From positions 638-64,637 of the forward strand of contig SVFO01000007.1 of the NCBI GenBank assembly GCA_015056795.1: DNA of 64,000 nt. Direction: 5' to 3'. The notes below the pieces were generated by a model. It made no database searches. It had not been told where the DNA came from and worked only from the letters and a program-made list of their open reading frames with translations. The translations under genes and the position numbers were made by a program. Of the stretch, positions 1,655 to 10,598 are shown one piece after another (the stretch's first letter is position 1; each line of letters opens with the position of its first letter). The DNA is from Lachnospiraceae bacterium. Its GTDB lineage: Bacteria; Bacillota; Clostridia; Lachnospirales; Lachnospiraceae.

Positions 1655-4144
1655 ATGGATAAAAAACTTTATAAACGAATGAATTGGCCCTTAATCGAGG
1701 AGATTGTTTATTCAGAGTCATCGAATCCGCACCGCATTCTTGGAGCACAGAAGGCTGGATCTCAAACCTTAGTACAGGCATTTTTCCCGGATGCGAAGGA
1801 GGTGTACCTTCATTGGACCCAAAAGGAGAAAGATCGTCAGCGGGAAAAGCTTGCAACTTATGCATATGACATAAAGATGGAGCAGGCAGACGAAGTGGGA
1901 TTTTATGCTGCTCTCGTTCCTGCCAAAAAGATTGATAGCTATGTTTATAAGGTGATTTATAAGGATGAAAGGGAAGCAACGGTTGAGGATCCCTATCGCT
2001 TTGATCCCGTAATCACCAAGGAAGACATTGAGCGCTTTAGTAATGGCGTAAATTATGAGATTTATGAAAAGCTAGGTGCTCATCCCATGAAGGTGGATGG
2101 CGTTTGGGGTGTTTTATTTGCCGTATGGGCTCCAAATTGTCTCCGCGTCAGCGTCGTTGGCGATTTTAATGGCTGGGATGGCAGGGTTCATCAGATGAGA
2201 AAGGTCTGGGACAGCGGCGTTTTTGAGCTGTTTATCCCTGACGTATCGATGGGCTCTAACTATAAGTTTGAATTAAAACTGAAAAATGGCCTGACCTACC
2301 TAAAAGCTGACCCTTATGCAAATGCTTGTCAGCTTCGCCCTGAAACGGCATCGGTAGTGACTGATTTAACTGATTTCAAGTGGGAGGATCAGGATTTCAT
2401 CGAGAATCGTGAGGATTATCAGACGGGCAATGTTCCCATGAGCATCTATGAACTCTATTTAGGATCCATCTTGGAGCATAAGGACGGTGGTTTCCCCAAT
2501 TACAAAGAGCTAGCAAAGAAGGTTATCTCCTATGTAAAGGAAATGGGATATACGCACGTGGAATTGATGCCCGTGACGGAATATCCCGTGGATGAATGCT
2601 GGGGATATCAGACGACAGGCTATTTTGCCCCTACGGCTCGATATGGCTCGCCTGAGGATTTTATGTATTTTGTCAATGAATTACATAAGGCTGGCATTGG
2701 AGTCATCATGGACTTTGCCGCACAGCATTTCACGAAGGATGATTTTGGACTTGCTTCCTTTGACGGTACCTGTCTTTATGAGCATCAGGATCCCAGAAAG
2801 GGCGTAAGTCCCAGATGGGGCACCTTGTTATTTAATTATGGTCGTCCTGAGGTATCGAATTTCTTGATTGCAAGCGCCTTGTTTTGGGTAGAAAAATATC
2901 ATATTGACGGCATTCGCATGGAATCCGTGGCGAGTATGTACTATCTGAATTATGATCGCAAGGATGGCGAATGGATTCCGAACATGTATGGCGGAAACGA
3001 AAATCTTGATTGTATTGATATGATCAAGCATTTGAATTCCGTCTTAAAGAAGAGAAATCCTGGTGTGTTATCCATCTCTGATGCACCGATTATGGACGAT
3101 GAGCAGCTTGGATTCGACTTGACCTGGAATCCTGGCTTTGTCAATGGTTATTTGGATTATATTAAATATGATCCGTATTTCCGTGCCCATCATCATGGCG
3201 AATTGACCTTTAGCATGGTTTATGCCTATACGGAAAAATATGTTTTGGCATTTTCCCATCATAATTTCGTTGGTGGTCAGTCCAGTATGCTCGGAAAGAT
3301 GCCTGGCATGCGAGAACAGAAGTTTTCGAACCTGCGTCTCACCTTTGCCTATATGATGGCTCATCCTGGTAAAAAGCTGTTATTTATGGGACAAGACATC
3401 GCAGAATTTGATGAGTGGAATGAAAAGCGTAGCGTAGAATGGAATTTGCTTGACTACCCTGGACATCGCGGTGTAAAGGAGTTGATCAAAGCCTTACATC
3501 AGCTTTATCATGAGCAGAGGGCGCTGTATGAGCTCGATGACGCTCCAGAGGGCTTTGAGTGGATCAACAACATTGCCGCGAATGACTGCTATCTTTCCTT
3601 CGCAAGAAAGGGCAGAAGGCAGGAAGATATGCTGCTAGTTATTGCAAACTTCTCAGGTATTGAAGAGGAGATTACGACAGGCGTTCCTATTCCAGGAAAG
3701 TATAAAGAGCTTTTGAATACGGATGCGAAAGCCTTTGACGGAAGTGGCATGGTTAATACCAAGATGATTTCTTCCAAGGAACAGCCTTGTGATGACAGAG
3801 AAGAATCCATAACGGTTAAGATGGCACCGCTTTCCCTGACGATTTTGCAATATGTACCCTTTACTAAGGCAGACTTAAAGCGTCGGGAAGAGATGAAGGC
3901 CTTGCTTGCCGCAAAGGAAGCACTTCGGGTTCAGCAGGAGGCTGAAAAGGAAGCGCTAGAGGCGGCTGCGAAGGCTGAGGAGCATCAAAAGCTCTTGGAA
4001 AAAGAAATGAAGGAAGCGAAGCTTGCAGCCAAGCAGGCAAAGGAATCCCTCGAGCAGGCGAAGAAGAAGACGGAGAACGCCATGCATCTTGTAGAGGAAG
4101 AATCCTTAAAGCTGGAAGGCAAGAAGACGAAGAAGGTGGAATAA
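1655..4144 (+). CDS. GlgB-family (GH13) protein, 1,4-alpha-glucan branching enzyme-like, predicted catalytically inactive, with C-terminal coiled-coil extension
   Basis: Two N-terminal CBM48-like segments (NPHRILGAQ..., GVLFAVWAPNCLRVSVVGDFNGWDGR), GH13 core homologous to GlgB (LYEHQDPRKG, NYGRPEVSNFLIASALFW, MAHPGKKLLFMGQ) but catalytic motifs altered; ~85 aa Ala/Glu/Lys-rich tail. Confidence 0.88.
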   Translation: MDKKLYKRMNWPLIEEIVYSESSNPHRILGAQKAGSQTLVQAFFPDAKEVYLHWTQKEKDRQREKLATYAYDIKMEQADEVGFYAALVPAKKIDSYVYKVIYKDEREATVEDPYRFDPVITKEDIERFSNGVNYEIYEKLGAHPMKVDGVWGVLFAVWAPNCLRVSVVGDFNGWDGRVHQMRKVWDSGVFELFIPDVSMGSNYKFELKLKNGLTYLKADPYANACQLRPETASVVTDLTDFKWEDQDFIENREDYQTGNVPMSIYELYLGSILEHKDGGFPNYKELAKKVISYVKEMGYTHVELMPVTEYPVDECWGYQTTGYFAPTARYGSPEDFMYFVNELHKAGIGVIMDFAAQHFTKDDFGLASFDGTCLYEHQDPRKGVSPRWGTLLFNYGRPEVSNFLIASALFWVEKYHIDGIRMESVASMYYLNYDRKDGEWIPNMYGGNENLDCIDMIKHLNSVLKKRNPGVLSISDAPIMDDEQLGFDLTWNPGFVNGYLDYIKYDPYFRAHHHGELTFSMVYAYTEKYVLAFSHHNFVGGQSSMLGKMPGMREQKFSNLRLTFAYMMAHPGKKLLFMGQDIAEFDEWNEKRSVEWNLLDYPGHRGVKELIKALHQLYHEQRALYELDDAPEGFEWINNIAANDCYLSFARKGRRQEDMLLVIANFSGIEEEITTGVPIPGKYKELLNTDAKAFDGSGMVNTKMISSKEQPCDDREESITVKMAPLSLTILQYVPFTKADLKRREEMKALLAAKEALRVQQEAEKEALEAAAKAEEHQKLLEKEMKEAKLAAKQAKESLEQAKKKTENAMHLVEEESLKLEGKKTKKVE

Positions 4145-4145
4145 C

Positions 4146-4970
4146 GTGACAAAGGAAGAATTAGATGCTTTTTTTATGACAGGGATTTCAGGCTCTATTT
4201 TTCAGCTGATCCTGCGTGTCCTGATTACGATTTTAATCTTTTTTATTGGTGCGAAGCTAATTAAGGTAGTACTTCGTATCGTGCAAAAGTCCATGGAAAA
4301 GGCCAAGGCGGAAAGAGGCGTCATCACGTTCGTGATTTCGTTCCTGCGCGTGGCTCTCTATGTGGTCTTGGCATTTATGATTGCATCGCGTCTTGGCGTG
4401 GATGCGGCAAGCATTGTTGCCTTACTTGGTTCTGCTGGTGTTGCCATCGGTCTTGCCATCCAGGGAAGCCTTTCCAATTTTGCGGGTGGCGTGCTGATTC
4501 TCCTGTTAAAGCCCTTTAAGGTTGGAGATTACATTATTGATTCCGCGGGGAAGGAAGGATTTGTATCCGAGATTCAGATCTTTTATACAAAGCTGCAGAC
4601 GGTAGACAACAAGGTCGTTATTTTGCCAAATGGCAATCTTGCCAATAACAGCATTACCAACGTGACCGCAGAAAAGACCAGAAGACTGGATATTTCCCTC
4701 CAGATCTCCTATGGCTCTGACATCAAGCTTGCAAAAGAGGTTTTGCAGGACATGTTGACCGAAAGCGATTATACGATCAAAGAGCAGGTAATGCGTGTCG
4801 TTGTTGATGAGCTGGAAGACAGTGGCGTTAAGCTGGTAATCCATTGTTGGGTAAAGAGTGCAGATTACTGGCCTGCCAAGTGGGATTTGACGGAGAAGGC
4901 GAAGTTGACCTTGGATGCGAATGGCATCGAGATTCCTTTCCCTCAGGTGGACGTTCATATGCGTTCCTAA
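4146..4970 (+). CDS. Small-conductance mechanosensitive channel, MscS family
   Basis: GSAGVAIGLAIQGSLSNFAGGVLILLLKPFKVGDYI is the MscS pore-helix/beta-domain signature; GTG start 1 nt after preceding stop. Confidence 0.93.
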   Translation: MTKEELDAFFMTGISGSIFQLILRVLITILIFFIGAKLIKVVLRIVQKSMEKAKAERGVITFVISFLRVALYVVLAFMIASRLGVDAASIVALLGSAGVAIGLAIQGSLSNFAGGVLILLLKPFKVGDYIIDSAGKEGFVSEIQIFYTKLQTVDNKVVILPNGNLANNSITNVTAEKTRRLDISLQISYGSDIKLAKEVLQDMLTESDYTIKEQVMRVVVDELEDSGVKLVIHCWVKSADYWPAKWDLTEKAKLTLDANGIEIPFPQVDVHMRS

Positions 4971-5009: not shown

Positions 5010-6518
5010 ATGTTTCATTTGTTTGAAAAGTTAAAAAATAAAGAGGTTTACTTTATTGCGGAGATGAGCGCCAATCACGGCGGAAGTCTGGAAAATGCTT
5101 TGGAAATTGTGCGTCAGGCAGCCAAAGCTGGTGCGGACTGTTTAAAAATTCAAACCTATACGGCTGACAGCCTTACCATTGATTGTGACAATGAATATTT
5201 CAAGATTCAGGGAACGCTTTGGGATGGCTACAAGCTCTACGATTTGTATCAGGATGCCGGGACTCCCTATGAATGGCAGGGACGCATCAAGGAAGAATGT
5301 GAGCGCTGCGGTATCGATTTTCTGTCGACACCATTTGACAATGATGCCGTAGACTTTTTGGAAAACTTGGGCTGTGAGGCATATAAGATTGCCAGCTTTG
5401 AGCTTGTGGATATTCCGCTGATTGAATATGCCGCATCGAAGGGCAAGCCAATGATTATTTCCTGTGGCATGGGAAGCGAGGATGAGATTCAGGACGCAAT
5501 TGACGCATGTAAGCGCGTTGGAAATGATCAGATTGTCTTACTGAAATGTTGCAGTGAATATCCAGCCAATTGGAAGGACATGCATCTTTCTAACATTCAG
5601 GACATGATGGAAAGGTATCATGTTCCCGTTGGACTGTCGGATCATAGCGAGGGTCATCTTGCTGACGTTGTAGGGGCTTCTCTTGGTGCATGTGTAATTG
5701 AAAAACATGTTAAGCTGGAAGGTGTGAAGAGCGCTGACAGTGAATTTAGCATGACAATTGCAGAATATGCCGAGATGGTTAACGCCGTCAAAGCAGTTGG
5801 AACGATTATCGGTGAAAAAAAGTATGGACCGACGGAGGGAGAACAGGCACTTCTTAAGTTTCGAAGAAGCTTATTTGCAGTGCGAGACATCAAAAAGGGA
5901 GAGGCCTTTACAAGTGAGAACGTAAGAAGCATTCGTCCTTCGCAGGGCTTGAAACCTAAATATTTTCAGCGAATTCAGGGACATGCGGCATTGACTGACA
6001 TCCCCTATGGCACGCCCGTTTCGATGGAACAGGTAAAGTCCGTGGACGCAATAAAGACTGAGCGTCTTATTCTTCGAGAAATTCGTGAGGAGGATGCGCA
6101 GGAAATTGTGGCACTGAGAAATCATCCAGATATCTTTCGTTACTTTACCAATCCTAAGACTTTGACGTTAGAGGAGCATCTTCATTGGTTTCATGACATA
6201 TATCCCTATGATCCCGATCGTTATGATTGGGTTGCAATCGATGCAAATGGTAAACGAATTGGCCTATTTAATTTAAGAGTTTCGAAGGATGGTTGTGCCG
6301 AGATTGGATATCTGATTGCCCCAGAATATTACGGCAAAGGATTTGCCAGTGAAGCAGTGCAGGCTATGATTGCTTATGCGAAAAAGGCTCGAGGATGTAA
6401 AACGGCAATTGCTGAAATTCATGAAGAGAACCAAAAATCACTCCATTTTATTCAAAAGTTAGGTTTTCAGCTGGAAAAGGCTGAAGGAGTCTATCAGATA
6501 TATAAGAGGTCATTATGA
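5010..6518 (+). CDS. pseI: Pseudaminic acid synthase-like (PseI/NeuB family) fused to C-terminal GNAT acetyltransferase (PseH-like)
   Basis: YFIAEMSANHGGSLENALEIV, KIQTYTADSLTID, PVGLSDHSEGHLADVVGASLGACVIEKHV, SAF domain (DIKKGEAFTSENVRSIRPSQGLKPKY), then GNAT domain from ~ERLILREIREEDAQEIVALRNHPD. Confidence 0.88.
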   Translation: MFHLFEKLKNKEVYFIAEMSANHGGSLENALEIVRQAAKAGADCLKIQTYTADSLTIDCDNEYFKIQGTLWDGYKLYDLYQDAGTPYEWQGRIKEECERCGIDFLSTPFDNDAVDFLENLGCEAYKIASFELVDIPLIEYAASKGKPMIISCGMGSEDEIQDAIDACKRVGNDQIVLLKCCSEYPANWKDMHLSNIQDMMERYHVPVGLSDHSEGHLADVVGASLGACVIEKHVKLEGVKSADSEFSMTIAEYAEMVNAVKAVGTIIGEKKYGPTEGEQALLKFRRSLFAVRDIKKGEAFTSENVRSIRPSQGLKPKYFQRIQGHAALTDIPYGTPVSMEQVKSVDAIKTERLILREIREEDAQEIVALRNHPDIFRYFTNPKTLTLEEHLHWFHDIYPYDPDRYDWVAIDANGKRIGLFNLRVSKDGCAEIGYLIAPEYYGKGFASEAVQAMIAYAKKARGCKTAIAEIHEENQKSLHFIQKLGFQLEKAEGVYQIYKRSL

Positions 6519-7558
6519 TTATTTTTCGCGCGGATGGAAATCGACATATTGGTTCGGGTCACGTGATGCGGTGTCTGTCCATCGCGGATGCTTTTCGTCG
6601 CGCGGGAGAGGAATCCTTGTTTGTCATGGCGGAGGATGCCATGAAGGATGTTGTAGAGAGCCGCGGCCATCAGGTAAAGCTTTTGGGCGGCTCTTTTGAT
6701 CAGACGAAAAAAGAACTTCCCATTTTTCTGTCACTTTTGGATGCTTTAAAGCCAAAGCTGATCGTTGTTGACAGCTATTATGTGACGGAACGATATTTTC
6801 TGATCTTAAGCGAAACCAATCTTCCCATTTGGTATATAGATGATTATGGAAAAACGGCATTTTCCGTGAGAGGCATTCTCAATTATAATGCCTATGGGCC
6901 AGACATCGATTATCGAGGCTTATATGAAGGAGAGGGGCTGTGCGTCCCTAGACTGTTGCTTGGCCCGACCTATGCTCCATTAAGGGATGTTTACAGGGAT
7001 GTTCCGAAGAGAATGGTTGCAAAAGAATGTAAGAATGTATTGATTTCTACGGGGGGATCTGATCCTCTTAGTGTTGCCAAAAGATTGGTGGATCATTTAC
7101 AATCTAATTCAGCAGAAGATAGATTGTGCTTTCATTTTTTAGTTACGCCCTTAAATCGTGACAGGGAGTATCTATTTCAGCTTCCCGTGGATCCTTCCAG
7201 AATCGTCATTCATGATCGTTTAAATTGTCTGAAGGACATTATTCTCGCATCAGATCTTGCCGTATCCGCAGCTGGAAGTACGATGTATGAGCTTTGTGCC
7301 TGCGGTTTGCCGACGATTAACTATATCTTAGCGGATAATCAGATTTCGGGCTGTCAGGCCTTTGCAAGGCTCGGTTACATGGATAGCTGTGGGGATTTGC
7401 GCGGACATGAGGAGCAAATTGGAGGGCTTATTTATACAGCTGTCTTAAAGCTTTCGAAGAACTATGAAGAGCGCAAGAGAATGGCTGAGGCCATGCAATC
7501 CTATGTGGATGGTTTGGGCGCGGACAGAGTCGTAACGGAGCTGATCAAATGCTTTTAA
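6515..7558 (+). CDS. pseG: UDP-2,4-diacetamido-2,4,6-trideoxy-beta-L-altropyranose hydrolase (PseG-like)
   Basis: FRADGNRHIGSGHVMRCLSIADAFRRAG and TGGSDP motif; overlaps pseI stop by 4 nt. Confidence 0.88.
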   Translation: MIIFRADGNRHIGSGHVMRCLSIADAFRRAGEESLFVMAEDAMKDVVESRGHQVKLLGGSFDQTKKELPIFLSLLDALKPKLIVVDSYYVTERYFLILSETNLPIWYIDDYGKTAFSVRGILNYNAYGPDIDYRGLYEGEGLCVPRLLLGPTYAPLRDVYRDVPKRMVAKECKNVLISTGGSDPLSVAKRLVDHLQSNSAEDRLCFHFLVTPLNRDREYLFQLPVDPSRIVIHDRLNCLKDIILASDLAVSAAGSTMYELCACGLPTINYILADNQISGCQAFARLGYMDSCGDLRGHEEQIGGLIYTAVLKLSKNYEERKRMAEAMQSYVDGLGADRVVTELIKCF

Positions 7559-7634
7559 AATGAATTGTTTAAATTGTGCTTGCAATTTTCAACCATATTG
7601 TATATAATAAGCAAGAAGCAACGAAATATGGTAT

Positions 7635-7707
7635 GCTGAAATAGCTCAGTTGGTAGAGCACTTCACTCGTAATGAAGGGGTCGAGGGTTCAAGTCCCTTT
7701 TTCAGCT
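7635..7707 (+). tRNA. tRNA-Thr (anticodon CGT, positions 7668-7670)
   Basis: Cloverleaf by eye: acceptor GCTGAAA/TTTCAGC, anticodon stem CTTCA/TGAAG with loop CTCGTAA, T arm GAGGG-TTCAAGT-CCCTT. Confidence 0.95.
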
Positions 7708-7796
7708 CGGCTGATAAGAGTTCAGCTATAATTACTGGGATAGCTTAACGGCTATCCTAAAATTTTATTAGGGGATAAAAAGGAGGTACACGTAAC

Positions 7797-8732
7797 ATGG
7801 AAGATTTTTTTGAGCGCTTGGGAGAGAACATCAAGTCTCACATCTTAGGATTCTTCAATGCAATCCCTAACGTACTGGCTGCCATTCTTTGGCTCGTTCT
7901 TGCGTTTGTTATTGCAACTGTGGTGAGGAATCTCGTAGTAAAGGTGCTGAAGGCATTAAAGATTGATAAGTATCTGAACAAGTGGAGCATCACGACGGAA
8001 ACGAAGAATACCGCAATTGATTTCATCGGCAAGCTTGTTTACTTTGTTGTATTCTTAATGTTCCTTCCCGTTGCATTTGGTAAGCTTGGCATCAGCTCTC
8101 TGACCAGCCCTATCAACAACCTTGTAAGTTCTTTCCTTGGATTCATTCCAAATCTGATCGGTGCAATCGTGATTCTGTTTGTTGGCTTCTTTATTGCTAA
8201 GCTGATCAAGGATCTGTTGGTTCCCGTTCTGAAGGCTGTCAAGGTTGACACTCTTCAGGAGAAGGCAGGAGTTAAGCTTGGTGAGAACACCACGTTCTCT
8301 TCCCTGATTGCCAACGTTGTTTACGTGATCATCGCAATCATTACGATTGTACAGGCTGTCAATGTTTTGAACCTGGCCGTATTGACCAGAATCGGTACTG
8401 CCATTATTGATTACCTGCCTGAGGTAGTCAGCGTTGTAATCGTAGTTACGGTTGCCCTGTTCTGTGCAAATGCAATAGAGAATATTATCAGCAAGAAGTT
8501 CCCGAAGGCAAAGACCGTTGCTTTTGGCGTAAAGGTTGCAATTTACGTTCTTGCCGCATTCATCAGCCTTAGCCAGTTGAACATTGCTCCCGAAATGGTT
8601 ACTTGGGCATTTATCATGATCATCGCTGCACTTTGCATCGCATTCGCAGTTGCATTTGGTATCGGCGGACGCTTCTTCGCACAAAATCTGTTAAAGAAGC
8701 TCGAAGACAAGCTGAGCAACGACGAGAAATAA
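7797..8732 (+). CDS. Conserved TM-helix repeat membrane protein (mechanosensitive-channel-related, no evident MscS beta-domain)
   Basis: Repeated amphipathic/TM units (NAIPNVLAAILWLVLAFVIATVVRNLVVKVLKAL..., GFIPNLIGAIVILFVGFFIAKLIKDLLVPVLKAV...); RBS aaaaggagg. Confidence 0.8.
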   Translation: MEDFFERLGENIKSHILGFFNAIPNVLAAILWLVLAFVIATVVRNLVVKVLKALKIDKYLNKWSITTETKNTAIDFIGKLVYFVVFLMFLPVAFGKLGISSLTSPINNLVSSFLGFIPNLIGAIVILFVGFFIAKLIKDLLVPVLKAVKVDTLQEKAGVKLGENTTFSSLIANVVYVIIAIITIVQAVNVLNLAVLTRIGTAIIDYLPEVVSVVIVVTVALFCANAIENIISKKFPKAKTVAFGVKVAIYVLAAFISLSQLNIAPEMVTWAFIMIIAALCIAFAVAFGIGGRFFAQNLLKKLEDKLSNDEK

Positions 8733-8776
8733 GTTTTAACACATAAGTTACCGACGATTAGAGGTATCTTTATTAC

Positions 8777-8815
8777 TTCCCACGTTTGATTGATGTCAGG
8801 CGTGGGAAGTTTTCG
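8777..8815 (+). terminator. Candidate intrinsic terminator after the TM-helix gene
   Basis: cttcccacg tttgattgatgtcagg cgtgggaag tttt. Confidence 0.65.
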
Positions 8816-8828
8816 TAAGGAGTCTAGG

Positions 8829-9899
8829 GTGAAAGAAAGAATTTATGTTTGTCACACCTATTATCATGTTTATGTAACTTTTTTGAAGGAATGCAATCTT
8901 CCCGCTGAAAAGAGAGGGCAAGCGACACTTGTGCTCAGCAACCTTTCCAACAATTTTGAACAGTTAAAGGAACGAGTGGAAAATACGGGGATATTTGCGG
9001 AGGTCATTCCCTTTGACGAAAAAAAAGAAACGGATTTTCCTGAGCTTGCAAAATATCGAAAGCCACAGCAGAATTTAGTAAAAAACCTGATTCAGAGAAT
9101 TATCTTTACAAAAAAATACGGAACGCTAGTAGGAAAGAATATTCCCGTTGATTTTAAGCAATATCGGGAGATTTATGTTTATTGTGATTCTGATCCCATT
9201 GGCTATTATTTGAACCGTCGTCACATTTATTATCATGCTTTGGAGGACGGGCTTAACTGCATCAAGAATTTTGATGCTGCCAGATACGACAACAGAGGGC
9301 ATTTTGCGCTGAAGGCATTTCTTTCTGAAAGGTGCAACCTAATCTTTATCCAGAATGGATACGGCCGTTATTGCCTTGACATGGAAGTAAACGACATTGC
9401 AGCGATCAAATATCCCTATCGAAAATACAAGGAGGTTCCTAGAGAGCCTTTGGTAAAGGCTCTGACGCAAGAGGATAAAAACCTTATTTTGCAAGCCTTT
9501 ATCAGAAATCGCGAGGAATTAGAGCGCATCATCAATAACTCCCGTGAGATCAATGATAAAATCTTGATTCTGACGGAACCCTTATGTACCTTGGATATCA
9601 GGGAGCAGATTTTCCGTGATTTAATCGAGACCTATGGCAAGGAGGGCACGGTTTTTTTAAAGCCGCATCCTCGAGACGTCTTAGATTATCAGACTCTTTT
9701 TCCTGACATTCCGCAATTTGACGGTTCGGTACCCATGGAAATGCTTAATTTCTTTCCCAATTTGAGATTTCGTAAGGTCATCTCCGTACTTACCGAGACA
9801 AAAGCAATTCAGTTTGCAGATGAGCTGGTACGATTAGGTCCAGATTTTATGGATAAGTATGAGGATCCGCTGGTTCACAGACAAAACGAACAAATATAA
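8829..9899 (+). CDS. Sialyltransferase-like glycosyltransferase (GT52/polysialyltransferase-type fold), putative nonulosonate transferase
   Basis: E/D-D/E-G-type motif (YYHALEDGLNCIKNF) and HP motif (TVFLKPHPRDVLDYQ) typical of bacterial sialyltransferases; GTG start at 8829 preceded by aaggag; ORF track start 8790 overlaps a terminator-like hairpin. Confidence 0.72.
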   Translation: MKERIYVCHTYYHVYVTFLKECNLPAEKRGQATLVLSNLSNNFEQLKERVENTGIFAEVIPFDEKKETDFPELAKYRKPQQNLVKNLIQRIIFTKKYGTLVGKNIPVDFKQYREIYVYCDSDPIGYYLNRRHIYYHALEDGLNCIKNFDAARYDNRGHFALKAFLSERCNLIFIQNGYGRYCLDMEVNDIAAIKYPYRKYKEVPREPLVKALTQEDKNLILQAFIRNREELERIINNSREINDKILILTEPLCTLDIREQIFRDLIETYGKEGTVFLKPHPRDVLDYQTLFPDIPQFDGSVPMEMLNFFPNLRFRKVISVLTETKAIQFADELVRLGPDFMDKYEDPLVHRQNEQI

Positions 9900-9911
9900 G
9901 GATGGTATTCT

Positions 9912-10598
9912 ATGAAGAAGCTTGCGATCATCACTGCGAGAGGGGGAAGCAAACGAATCCCCAGAAAAAATATTAAGCCCTTTTTAGGGAAGCCCATTAT
10001 CGCTTATTCAATTGAAGCCGCGATGCAGTCAGGTCAGTTTGATGAGGTAATGGTTTCCACGGATGATCAGGAAATCGCTGAAATTGCAAGGAAATATGGC
10101 GCAAAGGTGCCATTCCTTCGCAGTGAGGCAACGTCAAACGACTATGCGACAACGGTGGATGTGCTCTTAGAGGTTATTGATACCTACGAAAAGAGAGGGG
10201 AAGTCTTCGACGTGGCATGCTGTCTTTATCCAACGGCCCCCTTTATTACCGCGGAGCGATTAACAAAAGGCATGGAGCTATTAACCAACTCTGATTGTGA
10301 CGTCGTGCTTCCCGTCGTGGCATTTTCATATCCTCCAAAGAGAGGACTTGTCATTCGAGAGGGTCAGCTTGTGTTTGAGTATCCCGAATACTTAAACACT
10401 CGTTCTCAGGACATTGAAACAAGCTATCACGACGTGGGACAATTTTATTTGTTCCGTGTCCCAAATTTCAAAAAAAATCGCAGTCTGATGCTGGGAAATG
10501 TCTTGCCGCTGCAAATTCCTGAGACAGAGGTGCAGGATATTGATAACGAAACGGATTGGCAACTTGCAGAGATGAAATTTCGCTTGTTGCATTCTTGA
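9912..10598 (+). CDS. pseF: Pseudaminic acid cytidylyltransferase-like (PseF)
   Basis: AIITARGGSKRIPRKNIKPFLGKPIIAYSIEAA; CYPTAPF; family of CMP-NulO synthetases. Confidence 0.88.
   Translation: MKKLAIITARGGSKRIPRKNIKPFLGKPIIAYSIEAAMQSGQFDEVMVSTDDQEIAEIARKYGAKVPFLRSEATSNDYATTVDVLLEVIDTYEKRGEVFDVACCLYPTAPFITAERLTKGMELLTNSDCDVVLPVVAFSYPPKRGLVIREGQLVFEYPEYLNTRSQDIETSYHDVGQFYLFRVPNFKKNRSLMLGNVLPLQIPETEVQDIDNETDWQLAEMKFRLLHS

Follow-up and report, generated by a model that had tools for sequence, protein, structure and literature searches.

The catalytic triad of the glycogen branching enzyme GlgB of Escherichia coli consists of the nucleophile D405, the acid/base residue E458 and the transition-state stabiliser D526. 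Outside the active site, E. coli GlgB has surface glucan sites, including site IV (Trp159, in the CBM48 domain) and site VI (Trp628, in the C domain), at which mutation lowers activity (PMC10254366). Conserved inactive paralogues are already known in glycogen and starch metabolism, namely GlgD and plant ISA2. GlgD is an inactive paralogue that modulates GlgC within the ADP-glucose pyrophosphorylase of Firmicutes (PMC9093745). ISA2 is a conserved GH13 paralogue of the isoamylase class, which has no functional catalytic site, is complexed with ISA1 and is thought to act via its glucan-binding sites in that complex (PMC12510319). A GlgB domain without branching activity has been described in the GlgA-GlgB fusion of Waddliaceae and Criblamydiaceae within the Chlamydiae (reviewed in PMC11046441). 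A review of gut commensals mentions multiple glgB homologues in some species, e.g., Blautia obeum and Dorea longicatena, an observation that was not pursued (PMC10395257). Our literature search, which was thin on subscription papers, found no report of a free-standing GlgB pseudoenzyme under selection and none describing a single bacterial GlgB paralogue in which catalysis was lost repeatedly and independently.

Here we describe a GlgB homologue from a gut Lachnospiraceae bacterium that has lost its catalytic triad. The window, by which we mean the whole stretch of 64,000 nucleotides that was analysed, encodes this protein at 1655-4144 on the forward strand, the strand of all features given below. 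The frame runs from ATG to TAA without interruption and specifies 829 amino acids, as a preliminary description of this DNA had correctly reported. Its Pfam domains occur in the order GlgB_N, CBM48, Alpha-amylase and Alpha-amylase_C: the GlgB N-terminal domain (PF22019; residues 14-114, 1694-1996) is followed by CBM48 (PF02922; residues 139-222, 2069-2320), a TIM barrel (approximately residues 236-625, 2360-3529) and a C-terminal all-beta domain (PF02806; residues 636-733, 3560-3853). The protein scores 790 bits against the NCBIfam GlgB equivalog (NF003811/TIGR01515), above the cut-off of 741, which indicates that automatic annotation would list it among active branching enzymes. AlphaFold2 modelled a complete branching-enzyme fold (pLDDT 85.2, pTM 0.83), and the best matches of the model among PDB structures were all branching enzymes, with TM scores up to 0.93. 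The protein therefore shares domain order and fold with bacterial GlgB (GH13_9), at about 35-43% identity to the solved GlgBs, but differs in having its triad replaced, its acid/base loop shortened and its gene in a ser-DUF1015-mscS array instead of a glg operon. Like the GlgA-GlgB fusion, it represents a bacterial GlgB predicted to be without branching activity; whereas inactivation in that case is tied to the fusion, the window protein is free-standing and full-length and carries point changes plus a small deletion. Its fold and descent make it a GlgB; judged by the triad that defines the enzyme, it is no working branching enzyme.

We located the triad by aligning the protein with Cyanothece GlgB structures and, in an alignment of 112 sequences, with the GlgB of E. 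coli MG1655. The window protein has E, D and H at the positions of D405, E458 and D526: the nucleophile Asp is replaced by Glu423 (codon 2921-2923), the acid/base Glu by Asp476 (3080-3082) and the stabilising Asp by His536 (3260-3262), which agrees with the preliminary description that all three catalytic motifs are substituted. Its account of the acid/base segment stands as to the change and is refined as to the register, since E458 is the first E of I-A-E-E-S-T, so that E458 became D and E459 became A. S460 and T461 are missing within a deletion of about eight residues after the acid/base residue, which that description had not included. Also lost are K480, M483, M486 and D488; Asp335 of region I, His340, Arg403, His525 and Tyr300 are kept (all E. 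coli numbering). We evaluated the extent of the damage using a near-invariant set of 120 columns that are at least 99% conserved among the 199 homologues with an intact triad. Changes were found at 22 of the 120 positions in the window protein and at 23 in a relative that is 91% identical to it, as compared with a mean of 0.2 and a maximum of 4 in intact GlgBs. The barrel contains all 22, and none falls at the 28 near-invariant positions of the N, CBM48 and C domains (hypergeometric P 0.0015). The low-confidence segments of the AlphaFold2 model include residues 480-483 and 538-541, which are the damaged acid/base and D526 loops. Taken together, these results indicate that the three catalytic acidic residues have all been replaced along with the surrounding loops, and that the protein is otherwise kept. 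The E/D/H triad and the 22 near-invariant changes give good support to a loss of catalysis and bear out the earlier proposal of a probable pseudoenzyme; weak residual activity may persist, because D-to-E and E-to-D changes retain the negative charge. A literature search returned no usable study in which triad residues of E. coli GlgB were substituted.

The 91% relative, protein L115 of genome G336, is encoded on contig L034 of a sheep-rumen assembly from the same genus and has the identical E/D/H residues and deletion, which suggests most simply that the loss is older than the split between the two. Over 735 core codons, this pair shows a dN of 0.051 and a dN/dS of 0.042 at a dS of 1.22, which is near saturation. 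Similar ratios were obtained for the tail of the two proteins (0.040) and for an intact comparison pair, G337 and G386 (0.030). The two proteins differ at 8% of positions in the barrel, 12% in the N domain and 10% in the C domain, and at only 2 of 36 positions in the remodelled acid/base loop. The low dN/dS indicates that strong purifying selection went on after the loss and that the gene is not decaying, which had earlier been argued from the open frame. These comparisons argue strongly that the protein has remained necessary after the loss of its triad, and a pseudogene is rejected for this pair. In the terms used for pseudoenzymes, essential catalytic residues are lost and selection has been maintained after the loss, within the limit set by a dS of 1.22. 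Evolution was about 1.3-2 times faster in 10 of the 11 damaged copies than in their intact sisters, which indicates that some constraint was relaxed; most damaged lineages, taken singly, yield weak or uninformative dN/dS values, with dS saturated or high.

We also investigated how widespread the loss is by reading triad residues across 210 distinct homologues; these came from the genus and the family of the window and from a small number of distant genomes. The triad is D/E/D in 199 and damaged in 11: EDH in the window protein and L115, DEE in L122, NED in L188 and L210, DDR in L211, NAG in L222, TEA in L223, DS- in L225, GDQ in L248 and MDA in L096. With the motif columns left out of tree building, two trees require eight changes, of which at least seven are forced by well-supported branches. 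Thus, the catalytic residues of the long, tail-bearing GlgB paralogue of Lachnospiraceae, to which the window protein belongs, were lost independently at least seven to eight times. Within the genus, the long GlgB is damaged in 9 of 104 proteins and the short GlgB in 0 of 74 (Fisher P 0.011, with rows that are not independent); two short GlgBs from outside the genus are likewise intact (76 of 76). M486, in the loop after the acid/base residue, and the neighbouring M483 are altered in all 11 damaged proteins, which suggests that damage to this loop goes along with triad loss. The preliminary description had raised the question of whether the substitutions are fixed or random among orthologues. 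They are fixed in the window/G336 pair and different in each other lineage. A family-wide fixed substitution is rejected, since only one close relative has E/D/H, orthologues at 73-74% identity to the window protein retain an intact triad and the other damaged relatives are substituted differently. The differing substitutions combined with purifying selection still support repeated loss of catalysis rather than decay.

Several of the homologues are of separate interest. L200 (genome G421) has an intact triad with changes at M486, V337, F509 and E527, and possibly represents an early stage of the same triad loss. The independently damaged GlgB of L096 groups with those of Lachnospiraceae, so the species name looks misleading on this record, which has the title Fusobacterium naviforme ATCC 25832. 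L077, from a metagenome-assembled genome titled Gastranaerophilales, and L105, from one titled Muribaculum, are long GlgBs of the Lachnospiraceae type at 61-64% identity, and L077 also lies in a DUF1015-glgB-mscS array; both are probably from mislabelled or mixed bins.

The window genome encodes a separate, intact GlgB of 635 amino acids, which settles whether a second intact glgB is present, together with glgA, glgC and glgD. Wherever a damaged genome has a short GlgB, that protein is intact; G332, a 73%-complete assembly, is without one. A glgA gene and a glgC/glgD pair are present in each of the 12 genomes examined for them, 11 of which have a damaged long GlgB and one an intact one. These findings indicate that the pathway is alive and that only the long paralogue drops catalysis repeatedly. 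From its sequence, the separate intact GlgB is the protein that keeps the branching capacity of the genome, and the window protein thus has a predicted active paralogue in the same genome, as a regulatory subunit of the ISA2 or GlgD kind would.

The long glgB belongs to a conserved array, serC-serA-DUF1015-glgB-mscS (serC and serA named from their translations), which differs from the glg operons of other bacteria. In the window, the DUF1015 gene lies upstream at 308-1555, and the gene for an MscS-family mechanosensitive channel lies downstream at 4146-4970, starting 1 nt after the glgB stop; in 43 of 49 loci, no more than 100 nt separate the mscS start from the glgB stop. Both DUF1015 and mscS adjoin the damaged glgB in G336, G319, G418, G411, G332 and G342, mscS is kept in G087, where the upstream flank is short, and DUF1015 is kept in G415. 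Neither neighbour was found at the damaged locus of L096, and L314 is a short contig. Damaged long glgB genes are thus mostly still in their operon. Scans for promoters and terminators returned no more than chance, and a literature search on glycogen branching and mechanosensitive channels found no relevant paper. Across this family, DUF1015 stands in line after serC and serA (window, 308-1555; L319, 521-2763; L075, 794-4962), which suggests a link to serine synthesis. Directly downstream of mscS, the window contains a nonulosonic-acid-type cluster (5010-10598) with genes for NeuB fused to SAF and GNAT domains, a GT52/polysialyltransferase-like protein and a CMP-sugar cytidylyltransferase, as well as a gene without a Pfam match whose product looks PseG-like; the loci of the 74% orthologues have NeuB-like neighbours in a different arrangement. 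A second protein near mscS (7797-8732) has the repeated mechanosensitive-channel transmembrane helix PF05552, and a PF05552 protein is encoded right after mscS or glgB in two loci with damaged glgB (L312, 8171-9391; L314, 2555-3748).

We also examined the surfaces through which GlgB contacts glucan. W159 of site IV, within CBM48, and W628 of site VI are kept in all 11 damaged proteins and in all intact long GlgBs, and the window protein also keeps Trp586 of site I; at several other E. coli glucan sites, conservation is lacking even among intact long GlgBs. The retention of the site IV and VI tryptophans, together with a CBM48 that is unchanged at near-invariant positions, suggests that the window protein likely binds glucan. 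The preliminary description is thereby upheld in stating that the glucan-binding parts are kept, and the binding half of its proposed glucan-binding or scaffolding role is supported at the level of residues; the scaffolding half is an inference. The Lys/Glu/Ala-rich tail that it had noted is real, in that AlphaFold2 predicts one helix of 80 residues (residues 738-817, 3866-4105). It had also implied that the tail is connected with the loss. However, tail length varies from 0 to 235 amino acids across homologues, tails are common in intact orthologues, and the damaged proteins L223 and L225 have tails of 0 and 7 amino acids. The tail was therefore rejected as the reason for catalytic loss, and on these sequences it is a property of the long paralogue that is unrelated to the loss.

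These observations are consistent with a pseudoenzyme under selection that would bind glucan without cutting it and would serve glycogen metabolism as a scaffold or as a regulatory partner, an interpretation that we hold to be somewhat likelier true than false. The protein would fold as a branching enzyme and hold glycogen via CBM48, the C-domain surface site and the non-cutting cleft. While bound, it would act on a partner, most likely the active GlgB, GlgA or GlgP, and the helical tail would provide the contact arm. Alternatively, it may still be an enzyme that uses Glu423 and Asp476 as nucleophile and acid/base for slow glucan hydrolysis or transfer, or for a new specificity. Both replacements are acidic, the five active-site residues listed above are kept and the acid/base loop has hardly changed since the split from G336, yet this is unlikely: D526 is His in both proteins, seven further residues from E459 to D488 are lost, and AlphaFold2 is among its least confident at residues 480-483 and 538-541. 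His536 and the lost loop make residual chemistry by the E/D pair less likely, and other lineages have Asn, Thr, Gly, Ala or Met at the triad, which are chemically incapable. An assembly or sequencing artefact would be conceivable given that many relatives are metagenome assemblies, but is close to negligible, because the independent sheep-rumen assembly has the identical changes and deletion and because the changes are numerous and clustered in one functional site.

The intact short GlgB would make the activity of the long copy redundant, and the faster evolution of damaged copies is what a paralogue in early decay, with its frame open by chance, might show. We consider such decay improbable. 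The dN/dS of the window/G336 pair already contradicts it, the damaged copies that were retrieved have long open frames, and by our own estimate more than 100 stop codons would be expected neutrally in 829 codons at a dS of 1.22, whereas none is seen. The 1-nt spacing to mscS, which places any mscS ribosome site inside glgB, raises the idea that the frame is kept only through translational coupling and that the protein is irrelevant. This is very improbable, since coupling does not account for low dN/dS along the whole protein or for the fully conserved near-invariant positions of the CBM48 and C domains. The same proximity, which is retained in most damaged loci, and the long charged helical tail are compatible with a role tied to the neighbours, in which glucan stores would be linked with MscS to the membrane or to an osmotic response. 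We doubt this, in that adjacency does not equal interaction, serC, serA and DUF1015 share the array without an evident link to osmosis, and some damaged copies have no tail or no mscS. A general non-catalytic role for the tail-bearing GlgB of the array, in which even intact members would be glucan-bound and structural or regulatory, with catalysis optional and repeatedly lost and with possible osmotic or membrane functions via MscS, is conceivable but tentative, and we think it clearly less probable than its converse.

The selected pseudoenzyme would probably have a scaffold or regulatory role comparable with that of GlgD or plant ISA2, by analogy with these proteins. Like GlgD, it is a predicted inactive paralogue, and the two share pathway and phylum. 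However, GlgD has long existed as a separate family, has a subunit role of its own and is encoded beside glgC, whereas the losses in the long GlgB are recent and multiple and its gene is not beside the active copy. ISA2 differs in deriving from a debranching rather than a branching enzyme and in having a known partner, ISA1. Annotation at the level of NCBIfam counts genes of this kind as active GlgB, which inflates the branching capacity predicted for gut metagenomes. Furthermore, catalysis has been repeatedly dispensable and the protein has not, which suggests that the non-catalytic role is probably older than the losses. The recurrent loss provides a natural replicate series for what branching enzymes do besides branching, and suggests that the second GlgB copy has a job that is independent of catalysis.
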